A stretch of 64,000 bases of DNA from contig JAMPEQ010000011.1 of assembly GCA_023665085.1 (NCBI GenBank), forward strand, positions 1 to 64,000. The letters are read 5' to 3'. The stretch comes from Bacteroides sp. (GTDB lineage: Bacteria; Bacillota; Clostridia; Oscillospirales; Acutalibacteraceae). The notes beneath the pieces were generated by a model, which saw only the letters and a program-made list of their open reading frames with translations, had not been told where the DNA came from and did not search any database. Position 1 is the stretch's first letter; each line of letters begins with the position of its first letter. Both the position numbers and the translations under genes were made by a program. This document shows, in pieces, positions 44,334-52,160 of the stretch.

Positions 44334-45227
44334 ATGAATCCTATTCTTTTATCTTTGGGCGACACTATTGATAAAGTGTTTTACAATTTTGATTTGTGGG
44401 TTTTCCACTTTTTCGGATCTATGCAAAACGGCTTTTTCAATGTTGTTGCAAAGTTTTTTACAAGCTTTGGTGATGAGGCGTTTGTAATACCATTTGTTGT
44501 TCTGGGCATTGTTCTTTGCTTTTTTAAAAAAACAAGAAAATACGGCTTGTCAATTGTTTTTGCAATTGTAATCGGAACTCTTATTACAAATGTTGTTGCA
44601 AAACCTATCTTTCTTCGTATACGTCCTTATAACACATTACAGGGCAATGCTGATTATATGTCATGGTATCAGTTTGCAGGCTCACTTTCAGAAAGTGATT
44701 ATTCCTTCCCGTCAGGTCACACTACAGGTGCTACAGAGATTGCAATGGCTCTCATGCTCTGTTTTAAGAGTGACAAGAAAAAGTTTGCATGGGTGTTCCC
44801 GTTAGTTGCAATATGCACTGCCGGCAGCCGAGTTTATCTTATGGTGCACTATTCAACAGATGTTATCGGTGGATTTATTGTTGGTACAGTTGCAGGTATA
44901 TGCGGATACTTACTTATGAAGCTTGCTGTGGTTATTTTGAAGAAAATCAAGCTTGACGACAAGATTGACGCAGGAAAGATATTTACAAAACTCACTGAAA
45001 AGACAAAAGGTAAGGCTGCTCCTGTTGCTATCACTGTCGCAGTTGTTGCAATTTTCCTTACAGCATTCATCCCTGGTCTTACAGAGGGCGGAGCACAGGT
45101 CTGTGCATACGATGGCGAATATAACTGCCTTAATGCTGCAAGAGTTGATGATGAAAAATATCCTGCTATTGACGGCAAAGAATTTTGTAAAATCCACTGG
45201 AAACAGCTTATGGGTGAAGCAGAGTAG
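44334..45227 (+). CDS. PAP2 superfamily membrane phosphatase with C-terminal extension
   Basis: This 297-aa protein is a lipid phosphatase of the PAP2 family, acting on phosphatidic acid, undecaprenyl pyrophosphate or similar. The three motifs are KPIFLRIRP (about 90-98), PSGH (126-129) and SRVYLMVHYSTD (about 164-175). After the usual six-helix core an extra helix (about 235-250) is followed by a soluble tail of about 45 residues with three cysteines (CAYDGEYNC and KEFCKIHW), not part of the standard family. ATG 44334 follows GGAGGA; a TATAAT at 44298-44303 may be its -10. Confidence 0.9.
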   Translation: MNPILLSLGDTIDKVFYNFDLWVFHFFGSMQNGFFNVVAKFFTSFGDEAFVIPFVVLGIVLCFFKKTRKYGLSIVFAIVIGTLITNVVAKPIFLRIRPYNTLQGNADYMSWYQFAGSLSESDYSFPSGHTTGATEIAMALMLCFKSDKKKFAWVFPLVAICTAGSRVYLMVHYSTDVIGGFIVGTVAGICGYLLMKLAVVILKKIKLDDKIDAGKIFTKLTEKTKGKAAPVAITVAVVAIFLTAFIPGLTEGGAQVCAYDGEYNCLNAARVDDEKYPAIDGKEFCKIHWKQLMGEAE

Positions 45228-45432: not shown

Positions 45433-46971
45433 ATGGGTGAAAGAGCAGTTCGTACCTATGATAAAAAAGAGCTGAGAGGCTATCTCGTAGGTATGTTTGG
45501 TCAGAATATGATTTATAACATAATTGCTACAGGTCTTGTGTCAACGTATTTGCAGTTTTATTTGAAAATACCGGTTGCGGCTATAGGCGTTATTGTTGCT
45601 ATTTCAAGAGTCTGGGATGCTGTTAACGATCCTATGATGGGTACAATTGTTGACAGAACTAGAACTAAGTGGGGTAAATGCAGACCTTATCTTATTATTT
45701 TCCCTGCAATTATCGGTGCAATAACTATACTTTGCTTTGTTAATGGTATATACACTGAAGCAACAACATCCCTGCAGAGAGGTCTTATTATCGGATGGGC
45801 TGCAGTTGCTTATATTATCTGGGGTATGTGCTTTACTGTATGTGATATTCCTCTTTGGGGCATTACTTCACTTATGACAGAGAAGGAAAGTGACAGAAGC
45901 AAGATACTTGGTCTTGCACGTATTGCTGCAGGTATCGGCGGTATCGGTGTTCTTGTAGTTCAGATCGGTCAGGTTTTAGGCGGCATATTTACTAACGGAC
46001 TTGATCCTGTAAAGGATGTTAAGGCATATAACGCAGGCAATCAAAAAGGTTTTATTCTTGCTGTTGTTGTTCTTACGGTTATCAGCACAGTGCTGTTTGA
46101 GTTTGCCGGAATATCAACAAGAGAAAAGGTTCAGGTTAATGAAAAGAAATATACCTTTAAAGAGAATTTCAAAATTATGTGGAAGTGTAAGCCTTTCAGG
46201 CAAATTCTTATTTCAGGTATTCTTCGTTCGCCTATTCAGCTCCTTATGCTGATTGCAATGCCATTTGTAACTTACTATTTCGCTGACGGTGATATTACTA
46301 ATATTTGGAGCAAGGGAATTAATTTTGGTATGCTCATTAATATAGGTATTATTGCTATAGGCATATTTGCCGGTCAGTTTGTGGCTATGGGAATTACTCC
46401 TGCCCTTTCAAGAAAATTTGAAAATAAAACACTTTATAATTTCTTTTCAATTGCAGGTGCAGTACCATTTGCATTACTGTTCGTAGTTTATAAAATAGCA
46501 GGCGGTGATGTAACACCTATTGGCTGGATTATACTTACAGGTCTTATGCTTATGCTTGCCAGTGCCGGTATGGGCGGTATTAACGTTATGCAGTCTGTTA
46601 TGATTGCTGATTGTGTTGACTACGAAGAATACCACAACGGTATCAGACCTGATGGTGTATTCTTCTCAGGCCAGTCTTTCATTACAAAGCTTTCAGGCGG
46701 TATTGCTGCTATTATTCAGTCAGTTGCATATGGCTATGTTAATTTTTCCGATACTGCTATTGAGAAAATGCAGGCATCCCTTGCAACAGGTCAGCAGAGC
46801 TTTATTGATTATAATGGCGGTAAGTTTGCGGCAGTAATGTTCTTCCTTATTTCTATTCCTCCTGCAATAGGTATGCTTTTGTCAGCATTGCCTACACTTA
46901 AATATTCATTGTCAGATAAGGAACATAAGAGAATTCTTGATGAGCTTGTTGCTAAGCGTGCAGGTGAATAA
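45433..46971 (+). CDS. GPH family sugar:cation symporter (MelB-like)
   Basis: This 512-aa protein has twelve membrane helices and the glycoside-pentoside-hexuronide signature DAVNDPMMGTIVDRTRTKWG (residues about 58-77), followed by RPYL. GPH proteins import oligosaccharides or glycosides with sodium or protons. No glycoside hydrolase is adjacent, so the sugar is unknown. ATG 45433 follows AGGGGAA. It is a single-gene unit with a promoter and terminator, and a second GPH gene lies 3.7 kb away on the minus strand. Confidence 0.93.
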   Translation: MGERAVRTYDKKELRGYLVGMFGQNMIYNIIATGLVSTYLQFYLKIPVAAIGVIVAISRVWDAVNDPMMGTIVDRTRTKWGKCRPYLIIFPAIIGAITILCFVNGIYTEATTSLQRGLIIGWAAVAYIIWGMCFTVCDIPLWGITSLMTEKESDRSKILGLARIAAGIGGIGVLVVQIGQVLGGIFTNGLDPVKDVKAYNAGNQKGFILAVVVLTVISTVLFEFAGISTREKVQVNEKKYTFKENFKIMWKCKPFRQILISGILRSPIQLLMLIAMPFVTYYFADGDITNIWSKGINFGMLINIGIIAIGIFAGQFVAMGITPALSRKFENKTLYNFFSIAGAVPFALLFVVYKIAGGDVTPIGWIILTGLMLMLASAGMGGINVMQSVMIADCVDYEEYHNGIRPDGVFFSGQSFITKLSGGIAAIIQSVAYGYVNFSDTAIEKMQASLATGQQSFIDYNGGKFAAVMFFLISIPPAIGMLLSALPTLKYSLSDKEHKRILDELVAKRAGE

Positions 46972-46990
46972 TAAAAAATTTATATATTTG

Positions 46991-47027
46991 TCAGCCGATT
47001 GATTAATTTCAGTCGGCTGATTTTTTT
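46991..47027 (+). terminator. Terminator after the first GPH gene
   Basis: TCAGCCGA (46991-46998) pairs with TCGGCTGA (47013-47020), followed by seven T. Confidence 0.88.
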
Positions 47028-47038
47028 GTGTAAAACTA

Positions 47039-47091
47039 TTGACAAAATATGTTACCTTGTTATACAATGTATATGCATTGATATGCAAGGT
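47039..47091 (+). promoter_or_regulatory. Promoter and dyad operator of the PadR cassette
   Basis: TTGACA (47039-47044) is followed by TATACA (47061-47066, 16-base spacing) or TACAAT (47063-47068, 18-base spacing). Two nested inverted repeats share one centre at 47072.5: ACCTTG (47054-47059) with CAAGGT (47086-47091), and CAATGTATATGCATTG (47065-47080), a palindrome with one mismatched pair. In addition ATATGCA recurs at 47071 and 47081, a 10-base period. The dyad covers the -10 and start region, as expected for an autoregulatory PadR site. Confidence 0.72.
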
Positions 47092-47113
47092 ATATGTTTT
47101 AGGAGGAAAGTTT

Positions 47114-47440
47114 ATGCGTTACAGTAAAGAATTGCTTAAGGGCAGTACACCAATTTTAGTTATGAGCGTGTTAAAAGGTCAGGATTTATATGGATATAAG
47201 ATTATAAGAGAACTTGAAATACGTTCCGAAAATGTTTTTGAAATGAGTGAGGGAACACTTTATCCTATTCTTCATGCCTTAGAAAAGGAAAAATTCCTTG
47301 TAAGCTATTGGGAAGAGGTTGACGGCAGACGCAGAAAGTATTATCACCTTACTGACAAGGGTGCAAAACAGTTTGAAGAAAAAAAAGAAGAATTTATTTC
47401 ATATTCAAAAAGTGTTACAAAGGTTTTGAGCTTCGCGTAG
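47114..47440 (+). CDS. PadR family transcriptional regulator
   Basis: This 108-aa protein is a short PadR (subfamily 2): winged helix with ILVMSVLKGQDLYGYKIIRE (about 16-35), the recognition stretch MSEGTLYPILHALEKEKFL and wing EVDGRRRKYYHLTDKG. PadR proteins repress their operon until a ligand or stress signal. The start is ATG 47114 after AGGAGG; the open frame extends to 47039 but this overlaps the promoter. It heads a four-gene unit; the gap to the next gene is seven bases. Confidence 0.95.
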   Translation: MRYSKELLKGSTPILVMSVLKGQDLYGYKIIRELEIRSENVFEMSEGTLYPILHALEKEKFLVSYWEEVDGRRRKYYHLTDKGAKQFEEKKEEFISYSKSVTKVLSFA

Positions 47441-47447
47441 GTGTGAT

Positions 47448-48242
47448 ATGAATACTAATGAATACATAAAAGCTGTTCTTGGTCATATAAAGAATAAATC
47501 ATATCTTGCGGTAATTGAGCAGGAATTAAAAAATCATATTGATGACAGAACAGATTATTACAAAGAAATCGGATATGATGAAGAAGTATCGTTGCAAAAG
47601 GCTATGGAGCATATCGGTAGCCCTGATGATGTAGGCGAGCAGATGAACAGACTTCATAACAGCAAAAGGCTTAATACAGCAATTACTGTATTAGGCATAA
47701 TTGCTGCATTTGTCATTGGTTTGTACGGATATGTTTCTTATGATTGGTTTGGAGGATACAGCTCCACAGTATTTACATTAAGACATTATTTTATAATTTC
47801 TCTTGCCTTTCTTGCTCTTTTAATGTGCTATTCAGCAATGTTTTGCATTTCTGTCAAGACAAGAATAAGTAAAAGAGTCGGAGGAATAGCCGACTCAGCT
47901 ATTTTTATTCCATTGTTCTTATTTATATATTCGCAAAATTATTTATCTGATTTAAATTTAGCTGTGTTAAAAGGATTAACTATCAGCGATATGATAATTG
48001 ATGTTAATGCTGCGAAACAGCTTGTAATCTTATTTTTTTATTATGTTGTTGCAGTATTTTTGTTAACTTCTGCAGTATCGTTTTGTATGTTTGCAGAATT
48101 TAGGTCTTTCGAAATGGGCAAAGCCAACATGCAAATCATTTATAATGGTGAAAAATACAAATATTTTTTATATATTGCAAATATAATTGCCGTTATATTT
48201 ATTGCTTTTATTGCTGTTGGTTATTTTAGTTCAATTAGATAG
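47448..48242 (+). CDS. Membrane protein with N-terminal permease-prefix domain (PadR cassette, first)
   Basis: This 264-aa protein has an N-terminal soluble helical domain (about 1-70; ELKNHIDDRTDYYKEIGYDE, then AMEHIGSPDDVGEQMNRLH) of the type named permease prefix domain or DUF1700, found beside PadR regulators. Six hydrophobic segments follow. It lacks an ATPase or other catalytic motif. Residues 1-75 align with the start of the last cassette gene (EYIKAVLGHI versus DYIDNVLSHI, plus the H-I-D/E-D and YY-x-x-x-GY positions), so the two are paralogous there. Confidence 0.82.
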   Translation: MNTNEYIKAVLGHIKNKSYLAVIEQELKNHIDDRTDYYKEIGYDEEVSLQKAMEHIGSPDDVGEQMNRLHNSKRLNTAITVLGIIAAFVIGLYGYVSYDWFGGYSSTVFTLRHYFIISLAFLALLMCYSAMFCISVKTRISKRVGGIADSAIFIPLFLFIYSQNYLSDLNLAVLKGLTISDMIIDVNAAKQLVILFFYYVVAVFLLTSAVSFCMFAEFRSFEMGKANMQIIYNGEKYKYFLYIANIIAVIFIAFIAVGYFSSIR

Positions 48243-48250
48243 GTATTATT

Positions 48251-49405
48251 ATGGATTTGATAATAGATTTTTTTAAATATGCTCCTCATGGAGTGCTGGC
48301 ATTTAATATTATAGCTTTCATTTTGTGCAGAATATTTTTTGCTTATGCAGCTTATAAAATGGCAAAGGCTAAAAATCTTGCTGTTTATCGTTATTATGTT
48401 ATATGTGTAATCATTTTTGGCGCTTTAGGCTTACTGGTGTTTTCACTTATTACAGGATGCGTAAAAGGCAGGTCTGATTGGAAAAATAAAATTATTATTA
48501 TATTTTCTGCTGTCTTGATGGCAGTTAATATTTTTGTGCTGGCTGTCTGTACTTATCCCGAAGCTGCACATAATAAAAAAATTGATTATTATGGTTTTAA
48601 TTCTTCCATAGGCATTTTTGAAAAAGAAAATGGTGAAAAAATCCGTTATAATAATAAGGGTGAGGCTTTTACACTTGGCAATATGGATGGCTTTTCTTTT
48701 TATTCTGAGTCTGATAATAAATACAGCTTTGCAGTGATTTATGATAACAGTAACAGAGCATATGACTATGTTGTAGACGAAAAAGGCTTCATTAAAGAGT
48801 GCAAGCCAGACGAATTAACATCTGTTTATCTTGGTGATGATTTGTATGCATGGTTTGATGATAAAGAATTATATTATGCTCCTGAAAACTGTTACTATGA
48901 TTCTAACGGAAAGCTGTTATTGAACAATAATATGTTAAAAAAGCTAACTTACGAATTGCTTGTTGAATTCTACTGCAATCAGGAGTACAATCTTGAATTT
49001 GCACATAAAAACGATAAAGGCGAATATGTGTATTATGATAAAATGGGTAATGAATACAGTATTATCGACTGGCGAAACGGCAAAGTAACTATTCCGCTTT
49101 ATGACAAACTGGGAAATAAGTATACTGAATTCTTTGACGAAAAAAAGCAGTATACCAGATATGCTGACAGCCAAAACAATCTTTATGATGGCTATATTGA
49201 TGAAGACGGATATTTTGTAATAGATGATGGAAGTCTTGAGCTTTCTGTATATATTCAGGATTTATTTACATCGCAGGAGGTGTATTATGATGATGAAGGC
49301 CATTTATATTATAATACACACGAATGCTATTGGGATGCAGAGGGAAATCTTGAAAATTACACTTATGTAACCTACGATGAAATCAAGGAAAAGGAAAATC
49401 TATGA
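48251..49405 (+). CDS. Membrane protein with aromatic-rich repeat domain (PadR cassette, middle)
   Basis: This 384-aa protein is not recognised. Three membrane helices (about 13-37, 44-66 and 75-98) are followed by about 285 residues predicted to lie outside the cell. This domain is full of Tyr, Asp, Asn and Gly and repeats a YYD-x-x-G-type unit: YYDSNGKLL, YYDKMGNEY, LYDKLGNKY, YYDDEGHLYY and CYWDAEGNLENY. Such repeats recall WG or YD-type beta-hairpin surface domains. It starts nine bases after the previous gene and overlaps the next by four bases. A binding or sensing function is possible but not shown. Confidence 0.75.
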   Translation: MDLIIDFFKYAPHGVLAFNIIAFILCRIFFAYAAYKMAKAKNLAVYRYYVICVIIFGALGLLVFSLITGCVKGRSDWKNKIIIIFSAVLMAVNIFVLAVCTYPEAAHNKKIDYYGFNSSIGIFEKENGEKIRYNNKGEAFTLGNMDGFSFYSESDNKYSFAVIYDNSNRAYDYVVDEKGFIKECKPDELTSVYLGDDLYAWFDDKELYYAPENCYYDSNGKLLLNNNMLKKLTYELLVEFYCNQEYNLEFAHKNDKGEYVYYDKMGNEYSIIDWRNGKVTIPLYDKLGNKYTEFFDEKKQYTRYADSQNNLYDGYIDEDGYFVIDDGSLELSVYIQDLFTSQEVYYDDEGHLYYNTHECYWDAEGNLENYTYVTYDEIKEKENL

Positions 49406-50559
49406 AATCAAGAGATTATATTGACAATGTACTGTCGCATATCAGCAATAATGAGTATTCCAAAAGCGTAGAGTCAGAGCTTCAGGCTCATATTGAAGAT
49501 GAAATTGAATATTATGTAAGTCTAGGCTACAGTGTGAAAGATGCTGAATATATTGTTTCTGAAAAAATGGGTGACAGTGCTATTGCCGGCAAGCAGCTTG
49601 ATATGCTTAGTTCGGATAAAGCATCAAAAATATTCAGTATTATAGTTTTGTTGCTGTATTTTGCAGAGATAGTATACTTCTTTATTAGTATACTTGCTTG
49701 GGAAAGCGATTACAGTGTTTTCGGTATGATAAGTGAGACGAGTATATTGCTTTTAAGCCTGATAACTCTTCTCATTTCCAACAAATATAAAAACTCTGCC
49801 TTGCCTTTTGTTTCTCTCGCATTTACAGCCTGCTTTTACTTTATATTTGTTTTATTAAATTCTTCTGCATTGCTGTATAGCGCTTTTCTTTTGTGTACGG
49901 GAAAGTTTAATGATATAAAAGTATTGCTTGATGTTGATAATCATATAACAGGTAGGGCGTTTTATATTATTTCTAATTTTATTTATTTTGCACTGCTTTG
50001 TGCGCATATTTATATTGTTAAAAATAATAGTGATTTTAAAAAACAAAAATATTCGCTGAAAAAGGTGCATATAGAAATAATAATTAAAAAGATTTTTCTG
50101 GTTTCGCTAGCGTTAATTGTAATTATAAATGCCGGCACATTCGTAGTTCTGTTTTTAGATAAAGATGAACATGGTTATTATGATGGTGTCAGCGTTGTTG
50201 AAAGTGATATAGAATGCGATTTTGAAGATTTTGAAGTTAAAGACAATTATATTGAAATTCATTATGACTGGGGAGATGTTTTTGCATGGAGTGATAGTCC
50301 TGTGTTTAATGAGGACAGTGTAGATATGCTTTTAGATACAGTAGAGTATAATTCTACAATATCTTATGATACCCATACTATTTACGGAGAATTTAAGGCT
50401 GATAAAAAATATGCTGCTGTTATTCCTGTTAAATATGATTATGACACTGATACATATATTCCTATAACCGATAATGCAAAGTGGTATTTGACAACTGATA
50501 CTGATGAAATTACAGGTCAGATTAATGATGATATATATTACAAAATAAAAATAGTATGA
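49402..50559 (+). CDS. Membrane protein with permease-prefix domain and outer C-terminal domain (PadR cassette, last)
   Basis: This 385-aa protein repeats the prefix domain of the first cassette membrane protein (residues 1-72: ELQAHIEDEIEYYVSLGYSV), then has five to six membrane helices up to about residue 255. A C-terminal acidic, beta-rich domain of about 125 residues (HYDWGDVFAWSDSP near 285) is predicted outside the cell. Its start overlaps the preceding stop (ATGA). No family name can be given for the C-terminal domain. Together the three membrane proteins may form one complex under PadR control. Confidence 0.8.
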   Translation: MKSRDYIDNVLSHISNNEYSKSVESELQAHIEDEIEYYVSLGYSVKDAEYIVSEKMGDSAIAGKQLDMLSSDKASKIFSIIVLLLYFAEIVYFFISILAWESDYSVFGMISETSILLLSLITLLISNKYKNSALPFVSLAFTACFYFIFVLLNSSALLYSAFLLCTGKFNDIKVLLDVDNHITGRAFYIISNFIYFALLCAHIYIVKNNSDFKKQKYSLKKVHIEIIIKKIFLVSLALIVIINAGTFVVLFLDKDEHGYYDGVSVVESDIECDFEDFEVKDNYIEIHYDWGDVFAWSDSPVFNEDSVDMLLDTVEYNSTISYDTHTIYGEFKADKKYAAVIPVKYDYDTDTYIPITDNAKWYLTTDTDEITGQINDDIYYKIKIV

Positions 50560-50581
50560 ATATGTTTTAACACATGTAAAA

Positions 50582-50611
50582 AAAGAGCAGTTGATTTTTC
50601 AACTGCTCTTT
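50582..50611. terminator. Bidirectional terminator after the PadR cassette
   Basis: AAAGAGCAGTTGA (50582-50594) pairs with TCAACTGCTCTTT (50599-50611) around TTTT. It separates the cassette from the convergent sulfatase operon. Confidence 0.9.
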
Positions 50612-50624
50612 CTGCTATTTATAA

Positions 50625-52160
50625 TTATTTATTCATTGCCTTTATGCGTGCATCTTCAAGCTCTTTCTGTGCCTTTTCCTTTGTTTTGCCTGTGTAATCA
50701 TTGAAAAACATTGGGATTATTGTAAGTAAAAATCCAACAGCAGGAACTAGAGTAACAAGTGCTAAAAGCATTTTTTGCGTATCAACAGACTGTTCAAAAA
50801 ATATCTGTCTGCCGGCAATATCAACGAGTGATTTGTCTACAGCCTTAAAGTCTGACTGACCAAGTATCTGACCAAATACAAATGTTGCAATTGCTGCATT
50901 AACCTTTGACAAGAAAGTTTGGAAGGAGAAGCATACGCCCTCATGTCTTTCGCCTGTTTTCCATTCAAGATAATCTACTGAATCAGCAATTAATGCATAT
51001 GTTATTACATTATAGATACCTAAAGGCAATCCCATTAAGAATAGGCATATCCATAAAATATAAACATTTATTTTTGTTACATCCTGAGCAAATATAATGT
51101 AGCAAATAGCGTGAACAGCAAGACCGAATATTGCTGATCCAATATAAATTTGCTTTAAGGATAGCTTTTTTCTGAGAACAGGGAATATTGCCATTGCAGG
51201 AACCATGCCTACACCTATAGCAACTGTAAGTGTGGTCACTATAGTTCCTCTTGGTATCCAGAAACTGTAAGCTGCTGCAGCATCAACATTGTATCTCATG
51301 CTGTTTTCAATATTTACAAGTTCACCTGATATGCTTCCGTCAGCACCGAACAACTGGCTGAAATCAGTGAAATTTTGGATAATTAAATATTGACCTATAT
51401 AGTCAGCGCTCTGATTGGCTGTAACCATTGTTGATCCAAGTATTGAAGCAAATATAACAATAATAAGCAATCTGTTTTTGCCCAGAACTGAAAATGTTTC
51501 TTTAAATGAAGGTGTATGATCAGTTTTCGGTACTCTTTCTTTTGATACAAAGAAAATAAGTATAGACAATCCGCAGCCTAAAACAGAGAATATAACCGCA
51601 CTGATAAAAAAGCCTTTTGTATATCCGAGACTGCTTTGATAAAGTATCGGTACTAACAGTGCAGGAAGAATTCCACCGAAGGTAGAGCCGAGTCTTGCGG
51701 TTGATATAAATGATGTTCTTTCACTTTCCAGGGGAGTGATTACTGATGATAATCCCCAGAAAGGAACATCCTGAATTGTAAATGAAACACCCCAAAGAAT
51801 GTATGTAACCAGTGCCCATACAAATGCTGCACTTGAACCATGCTCAAATGGTGCTGAAAATAAAAGAATTGTTGTTATTGCAATCGGAATAGGAGCATAT
51901 AACAGATATGGTCTCATTTTGCCCCATTTTGATTTTGTTCTATCTACAATCATGCCCATTATCGGATCATTAATTGCATCGAATATTCTTCCTATAAGGA
52001 TGATGCTTGTGCTTTGACTTAATGTAAGCCCTGCACCGTTTTGGAAAAACACTAATGTGAACATTGACATTAATGTGTATATGCCGGATCGTCCGAATGC
52101 GCCCACAGTAAAGCAAATTCGTTCTTTCATTGTAAGATGTTTAGTATTATTGTTTTTCAT
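50625..52160 (-). CDS. GPH family sugar:cation symporter in the sulfatase operon
   Basis: This 511-aa protein has twelve membrane helices and the GPH signature DAINDPIMGMIVDRTKSKWG (about 61-80), then RPYL. It shares the layout of the 45433-46971 symporter. It follows the sulfatase gene by two bases on the same strand, so its substrate is likely a sulfated or desulfated sugar or glycoside. A long loop near residues 250-290 (after TANQSADYIGQYLI) is larger than in the other copy. Terminator shared with the PadR cassette. Confidence 0.92.
   Translation of the reverse strand: MKNNNTKHLTMKERICFTVGAFGRSGIYTLMSMFTLVFFQNGAGLTLSQSTSIILIGRIFDAINDPIMGMIVDRTKSKWGKMRPYLLYAPIPIAITTILLFSAPFEHGSSAAFVWALVTYILWGVSFTIQDVPFWGLSSVITPLESERTSFISTARLGSTFGGILPALLVPILYQSSLGYTKGFFISAVIFSVLGCGLSILIFFVSKERVPKTDHTPSFKETFSVLGKNRLLIIVIFASILGSTMVTANQSADYIGQYLIIQNFTDFSQLFGADGSISGELVNIENSMRYNVDAAAAYSFWIPRGTIVTTLTVAIGVGMVPAMAIFPVLRKKLSLKQIYIGSAIFGLAVHAICYIIFAQDVTKINVYILWICLFLMGLPLGIYNVITYALIADSVDYLEWKTGERHEGVCFSFQTFLSKVNAAIATFVFGQILGQSDFKAVDKSLVDIAGRQIFFEQSVDTQKMLLALVTLVPAVGFLLTIIPMFFNDYTGKTKEKAQKELEDARIKAMNK

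Follow-up and report, generated by a model that had tools for sequence, protein, structure and literature searches.

A 2024 comparative study defined the HAAS domain, found it always in gene neighborhoods with a PadR-like regulator, and, in the portions drawn on here, proposed that HAAS-PadR pairs offer an alternative to two-component systems that needs no kinase; the contact by which HAAS would alter DNA binding by PadR is itself presented there as a proposal (PMC11237479). Those portions name uncharacterized HAAS fusions with 6TM, 4TM, and 2TM (transmembrane, TM) parts and describe no split form of the kind discussed below, nor is a split HAAS receptor described in the available text of the literature on PadR with HAAS, the permease prefix domain, DUF1700, or lftR/lieAB. 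In Listeria, according to the part of the report used here, loss of LltR function raised its own PadR-DUF1700-DUF4097 operon approximately 100- to 150-fold; beyond read-through, six other genes were affected only mildly (PMC6624303). Here we analyzed a stretch of 64,000 nucleotides (the window) from contig JAMPEQ010000011.1 of Bacteroides sp. assembly GCA_023665085.1, in which a PadR gene is followed by three membrane-protein genes, mem1 to mem3, between positions 47039 and 50611. The prefix domain found in this cassette and the kind of system are already known. With modest confidence, we read the cassette as a HAAS-PadR signaling operon in which the receptor would be split over two genes, mem1 providing the HAAS domain and mem2 the outer domain.

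Domains of the cassette

The genes and domains are as follows (TM segments were called by a simple hydropathy script).

47114 to 47440, + strand: PadR regulator, 108 amino acids (PF03551, 88.8 bits, cut-off 27)
47448 to 48242, + strand: mem1, HAAS protein of 264 amino acids with five hydropathy TM segments, ending shortly past TM5
47448 to 47672, + strand: HAAS / perm_prefix_1 domain of mem1 (NF038403, 33.1 bits, cut-off 30)
48251 to 49405, + strand: mem2, of the type here called MEM2, 384 amino acids, with a C-terminal part following three hydropathy TM segments
48554 to 48967, + strand: first copy of the mem2 outer domain, residues 102-239 (hidden Markov model [HMM] match, 53.7 bits)
48977 to 49399, + strand: second copy of the mem2 outer domain, residues 243-383 (HMM match, 121.5 bits)
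49402 to 50559, + strand: mem3, 385 amino acids, with a C-terminal part that follows a HAAS-like prefix and five hydropathy TM segments
49402 to 49626, + strand: HAAS-like domain of mem3 (NF038403, 25.6 bits, under the cut-off of 30), which aligns with that of mem1

The first-pass annotation of this DNA had reported a PadR gene and three unrecognized membrane proteins, the first and third sharing an N-terminal prefix. All four genes were present on the + strand, the PadR was clear by PF03551, with many relatives of solved structure identified by sequence, and the prefixes of mem1 and mem3 were 34% identical over 73 residues (E 2e-11). The word unrecognized stands for mem2, which had no Pfam match at cut-off, and falls for mem1 and mem3, whose prefix is the HAAS domain, or "permease prefix domain 1," of a published PadR-coupled system; the operon was therefore assigned to the HAAS-PadR signaling systems. 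The perm_prefix_1 model matched all 14 aligned relatives (mem1 and mem3 among them) at E<=0.001. Pfam HAAS matched 5 of the 14 at E<=0.1, with a best value of 2.3e-4, and had no match to mem1 at that threshold. Six columns invariant across the 14 relatives are retained in the mem3 prefix, and the G of a GxP motif in the third helix, which reads GSP in mem1, is invariant in the 14 as well. In both mem1 and mem3 the prefix is fused to a multi-TM part of five hydropathy segments. When the HAAS alignment was used for a profile search of the PDB, no convincing match emerged (best E 0.084).

The middle protein had been described as rich in repeats with a large outer domain. The repeats were confirmed: four Y[YW]DxxG motifs fall within the last 284 residues of mem2, compared to a mean of 0.03 in shuffled sequences, none of 5,000 of which reached four, and the motifs lie inside two tandem copies of one domain. 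The placement of this domain outside the cell has indirect support from loop charge and cysteine pairs. In MEM2-type proteins the loop preceding the last TM segment is mostly positive (net charge 0 to +8), and zinc-ribbon-like cysteine pairs were seen between TM2 and TM3 in three MEM2-like relatives (loci L133, L135, and L144). This suggests that the last inter-TM loop is cytoplasmic and that the MEM2 C-terminal part is outside; in mem3, five TM segments after a HAAS domain in the cytoplasm would likewise place the C terminus outside. The earlier statement that no enzyme motif is present holds at the Pfam level, as no family reached its cut-off in any of the three membrane proteins. Sub-cut-off Pfam matches of mem2 (Voltage_CLC, EBP, and others; 18 families, each in one of five members) were rejected as TM noise. 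The L133 relative carries PLDc_N (PF13396) above cut-off in its TM part and zinc-ribbon models below cut-off; mem2 itself has no PLDc_N match. The best PDB profile match to the mem2 alignment was 7sg7, "Gene 14 protein" (E 0.0069), and rhodopsins matched over the TM columns.

Short HAAS proteins and the separate outer domain

HAAS matches were found in 45 of 80 genomes of the genus. From the fetched neighborhoods, 75 distinct HAAS proteins were tabulated, and dropping three at contig ends left 72, of which 59 had PadR directly upstream and 66 had it within 3.5 kb upstream. The mem2 profile matched 57 of the 80 genomes at E<=0.001, many of the matches being weak or partial; across an order-wide sample of 394 genomes, with up to five candidates scored per genome, it matched three at E<=1e-10, all from this genus (1 of 168 genera). 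PadR, HAAS, and MEM2 occur together at 16 loci in 16 of the 80 genomes, the window included. Thirteen have the order PadR-HAAS-MEM2 (the window, L062, L064, L065, L115, L117, L118, L119, L121, L122, L123, L127, and L155), and in three a second HAAS gene intervenes (L063, L114, and L120). L116, on a 5.5-kb contig, has HAAS and MEM2 without PadR. The proposed search for the same gene order elsewhere therefore recovered the three-gene set in 16 genomes, and the four-gene order PadR, short HAAS, MEM2, long HAAS in none of the other loci fetched. PadR, HAAS, and MEM2 form the conserved set, to which mem3 does not belong. The HAAS gene of L123 lies in two frames and MEM2 is short or in pieces in L119 and L155, which suggests decay of the cassette at these loci. 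At L134, L137, L142, and L143, HAAS-less MEM2-like genes adjoin genes for PAP2 lipid phosphatases, which are relatives of the PAP2 gene that the window carries at 44334-45227.

The evidence for a split receptor comes from the way in which outer domains are distributed. Short HAAS proteins, of 226 to 288 amino acids (223 in the broken L123 copy), end shortly past TM5 and lack an outer domain; long HAAS proteins have additional sequence beyond the last TM segment. MEM2 lies directly 3' of 15 of the 16 short HAAS proteins versus 3 of the 56 long ones (L121_5, L122_6, and L146_7; Fisher p 1e-11). An HMM was built from 19 MEM2 outer parts and run against the 56 HAAS proteins with at least 60 residues past the last TM segment, with E computed for 70 sequences. 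It matched the far C terminus of 17 of them at E<=0.01, all 17 being 676 to 738 amino acids long, and one further protein at E 0.059; controls gave no matches among 1,120 shuffled (best 0.018) or 56 reversed sequences. In one branch, therefore, the outer domain forms part of the HAAS protein, and in another it is a separately encoded membrane protein beside tail-less HAAS. Sequence divergence followed a gradient: in nine chosen pairs, identity was 72-93% for PadR, 40-94% for HAAS domains, and 22-59% for TM plus outer parts, the mem1-type proteins themselves ranging from 23 to 51% in the TM part. Constancy inside and variability outside are as expected of a surface receptor that feeds a fixed switch.

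Several observations weigh against this reading. On the tree of 72 HAAS proteins the short label requires only four changes and the fused label also four, so that few events underlie the counts, which are not independent. Complementarity is not strict, given that L121_5 and L122_6 are long with MEM2 behind them and that L146_7 has the fused domain plus a weak MEM2, and 39 of the 56 HAAS C-terminal parts had no match to the MEM2 domain at E<=0.01. For six of the 72 HAAS proteins no PadR lies within reach, and among the 36 MEM2-hit neighborhoods fetched (L114-L149, picked mainly from stronger mem2-profile matches), 24 are without HAAS or PadR. The mem3 prefix scores under the family cut-off and has no GxP motif, which is present in only 11 of the genus's 75 HAAS proteins. 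Against an outside placement of the MEM2 C-terminal part, the loop ahead of the last inter-TM loop likewise carries a slight positive charge (0 to +4).

Putative operator, proposed mechanism, and rival explanations

The following signals accompany the four genes.

46990 to 47021, + strand: terminator-like hairpin, assigned to the MFS gene that lies upstream
47039 to 47068, + strand: promoter, TTGACA (47039-47044), 18-base spacer, TACAAT (47063-47068), 11 of 12 consensus bases
47053 to 47092, no strand assigned: putative PadR operator of 40 bp, TACCTTG-N26-CAAGGTA, with conserved arms, overlapping the promoter spacer and the -10 box
50582 to 50611, + strand: terminator-like hairpin 3' of mem3

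Gaps or overlaps under 10 bases had been claimed, and the spacings are 7 bases between PadR and mem1, 8 bases between mem1 and mem2, and a 4-base overlap between mem2 and mem3. The four genes, bounded by the two hairpins, would probably be transcribed as one operon. At position 47039, previously given as the start of the feature, the -35 box begins, since the best promoter match within 46900-50750 starts there; as a start codon the TTG at this position is spurious, and PadR likely starts at the ATG at 47114, which is preceded by AGGAGG. A comparable promoter arrangement lies upstream of many related PadR genes. No Rfam family reached its gathering score in the window.

The palindrome to which the first-pass annotation had pointed (47054-47091) is not significant on its own, as 128 of 3,000 randomized regions were equally good, and was judged significant because it is conserved upstream of related PadR genes. 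Among 59 such genes, split by whether the HAAS protein is shorter than 550 amino acids (35) or longer (24), the arms matched at 12 or more of 14 positions upstream of 25 of the 35 and none of the 24. The 26-base spacing was identical in 23 of the 25, and an arm score of 12 was reached in 3 of 1,180 randomized upstream regions. The longer-HAAS group instead showed CATAG-N-CTATG in 13 of 24, an arrangement found in 0 of the 35 and in 2 of 1,180 randomized regions. The PadR tree divides along nearly the same line as the operator classes, with poor resolution at many forks. Lying over its own promoter, the palindrome probably serves local autorepression by PadR. Its single occurrence in the genome at up to three mismatches fits this; autorepression has been measured for LltR in Listeria. 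A second PadR-HAAS pair in the same genome (L070, G000:C31:34000-48000; HAAS protein of 450 amino acids) lacks the TACCTTG operator.

From these features a regulatory loop can be proposed. PadR on the 40-bp operator over its own promoter would keep the operon nearly off. The mem1 product would be a membrane-anchored cytoplasmic HAAS domain that faces PadR and has no outer domain of its own, and mem2 would provide one in trans. The mem2/mem1 pair would sense some change in the membrane or at the surface, and so would mem3, which is likewise of HAAS type and has an outer part of its own; the sensed change would alter the HAAS domain, and PadR would leave the operator. The membrane proteins, then abundant, would act on the envelope until fresh PadR shut the loop. 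The suggestion of a dedicated envelope signaling unit switched by PadR thus survives as the best reading, for a kind of system that had already been published.

The rival that fares best, which we consider unlikely, is that the sensor is PadR itself, which would come off the operator in response to a small membrane-active compound, with mem1 to mem3 as envelope-protecting effectors that sense nothing. In the portion of the Listeria paper drawn on here, overproduction of the DUF1700 protein of the lltR operon caused a cold-growth defect, so that this protein acts as the effector, and the authors assume that such PadR repressors answer envelope-active compounds (PMC6624303); the title of the LftR paper likewise announces a ligand-induced mechanism. 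This explanation would leave unexplained both the regular position of HAAS beside PadR (59 of 72 direct) and the joint sorting of PadR, operator, and HAAS classes. It is improbable that mem1 and mem2 are independent proteins under one promoter, their pairing an inherited old gene order with no complex formed. The small number of label changes on the HAAS tree (only four) and the many MEM2-like genes without HAAS are what such inheritance would give; the same outer domain nevertheless also occurs as a fusion in HAAS proteins from another branch, and MEM2 has stayed directly behind every short HAAS protein except one despite 23-51% identity in the TM part of mem1-type proteins. Membership in a phage shock protein (PSP)-type envelope stress operon is largely refuted and was rejected, as PspA was not found in the genome by a search that was positive in 9 of 14 control genomes, the sole PspC match lies on contig C26 and not beside the cassette (the window is on C2), and Toastrack/DUF4097 models matched neither mem2, mem3, nor the rest of the operon (Pfam and NCBIfam).

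Origin of mem3, the chromosomal site, and known systems

The shared prefixes had been called duplicated. The HAAS tree places mem1 with L127_2 (100/99) and mem3 with L066_5 and L067_9 (99/93). A supported split (99/98) separates the two groups, which rules out mem3 as a local duplicate of mem1. The PadRs of the L127, L066, and L067 loci share 87-93% identity with that of the window; because mem1 and mem3 sit on separate branches while these PadRs are so similar, it seems that different HAAS modules came together behind a single type of repressor.

The cassette is flanked in the window by MFS_2 sugar transporter genes at 45433-46971 and 50625-52160. Relatives of both border the cassette in L114 and L155, and a relative of one does so in L063, L116, L119, L127, and L154; cassette content varies among these seven loci. 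By coordinates, its orientation to the MFS_2 genes is flipped in L063, L114, L116, L119, L154, and L155 compared to the window and L127. The PadR-HAAS cassette between MFS_2 genes thus has the appearance of a variable plug at a fixed site. Tentatively, and with less assurance than for the split receptor, the outer sensing domain might exist both as a fused HAAS tail and as an exchangeable MEM2 subunit for tail-less HAAS anchors, one chromosomal site being re-plugged with different outer parts over a near-constant PadR as a modular surface-sensing slot. A separate outer subunit, a fused form in sister species, and a conserved operator would allow signal transfer to be tested by removing or swapping the parts one at a time.

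Among described families, NCBIfam NF038403 includes mem1 above its cut-off; Pfam detected no known permease domain downstream of the prefix in mem1 or mem3, and neither Pfam nor NCBIfam an FtsX/MacB-type permease or ATPase in the operon. With LltR-Lmo0600-Lmo0601 of Listeria monocytogenes, as far as described in the cited text, the cassette shares a PadR, a DUF1700 membrane protein, and a separate protein, the Listeria operon being strongly autorepressed; it differs in that the third gene there encodes DUF4097, to which mem2 has no match, and in having a fourth gene (PMC6624303). With the HAAS-PadR-like winged helix-turn-helix systems, it shares a standalone PadR beside HAAS-prefixed multi-TM proteins; unlike those covered in the portions of that study used here, it has no Toastrack or PspC, and part of its outer domain lies on a separate TM protein (PMC11237479). 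What is new here is the PadR, HAAS, and MEM2 set, the pairing of short HAAS with MEM2, the outer-domain fusions, and the recurrent putative operator, in a form of the system whose outer subunit has a gene of its own.

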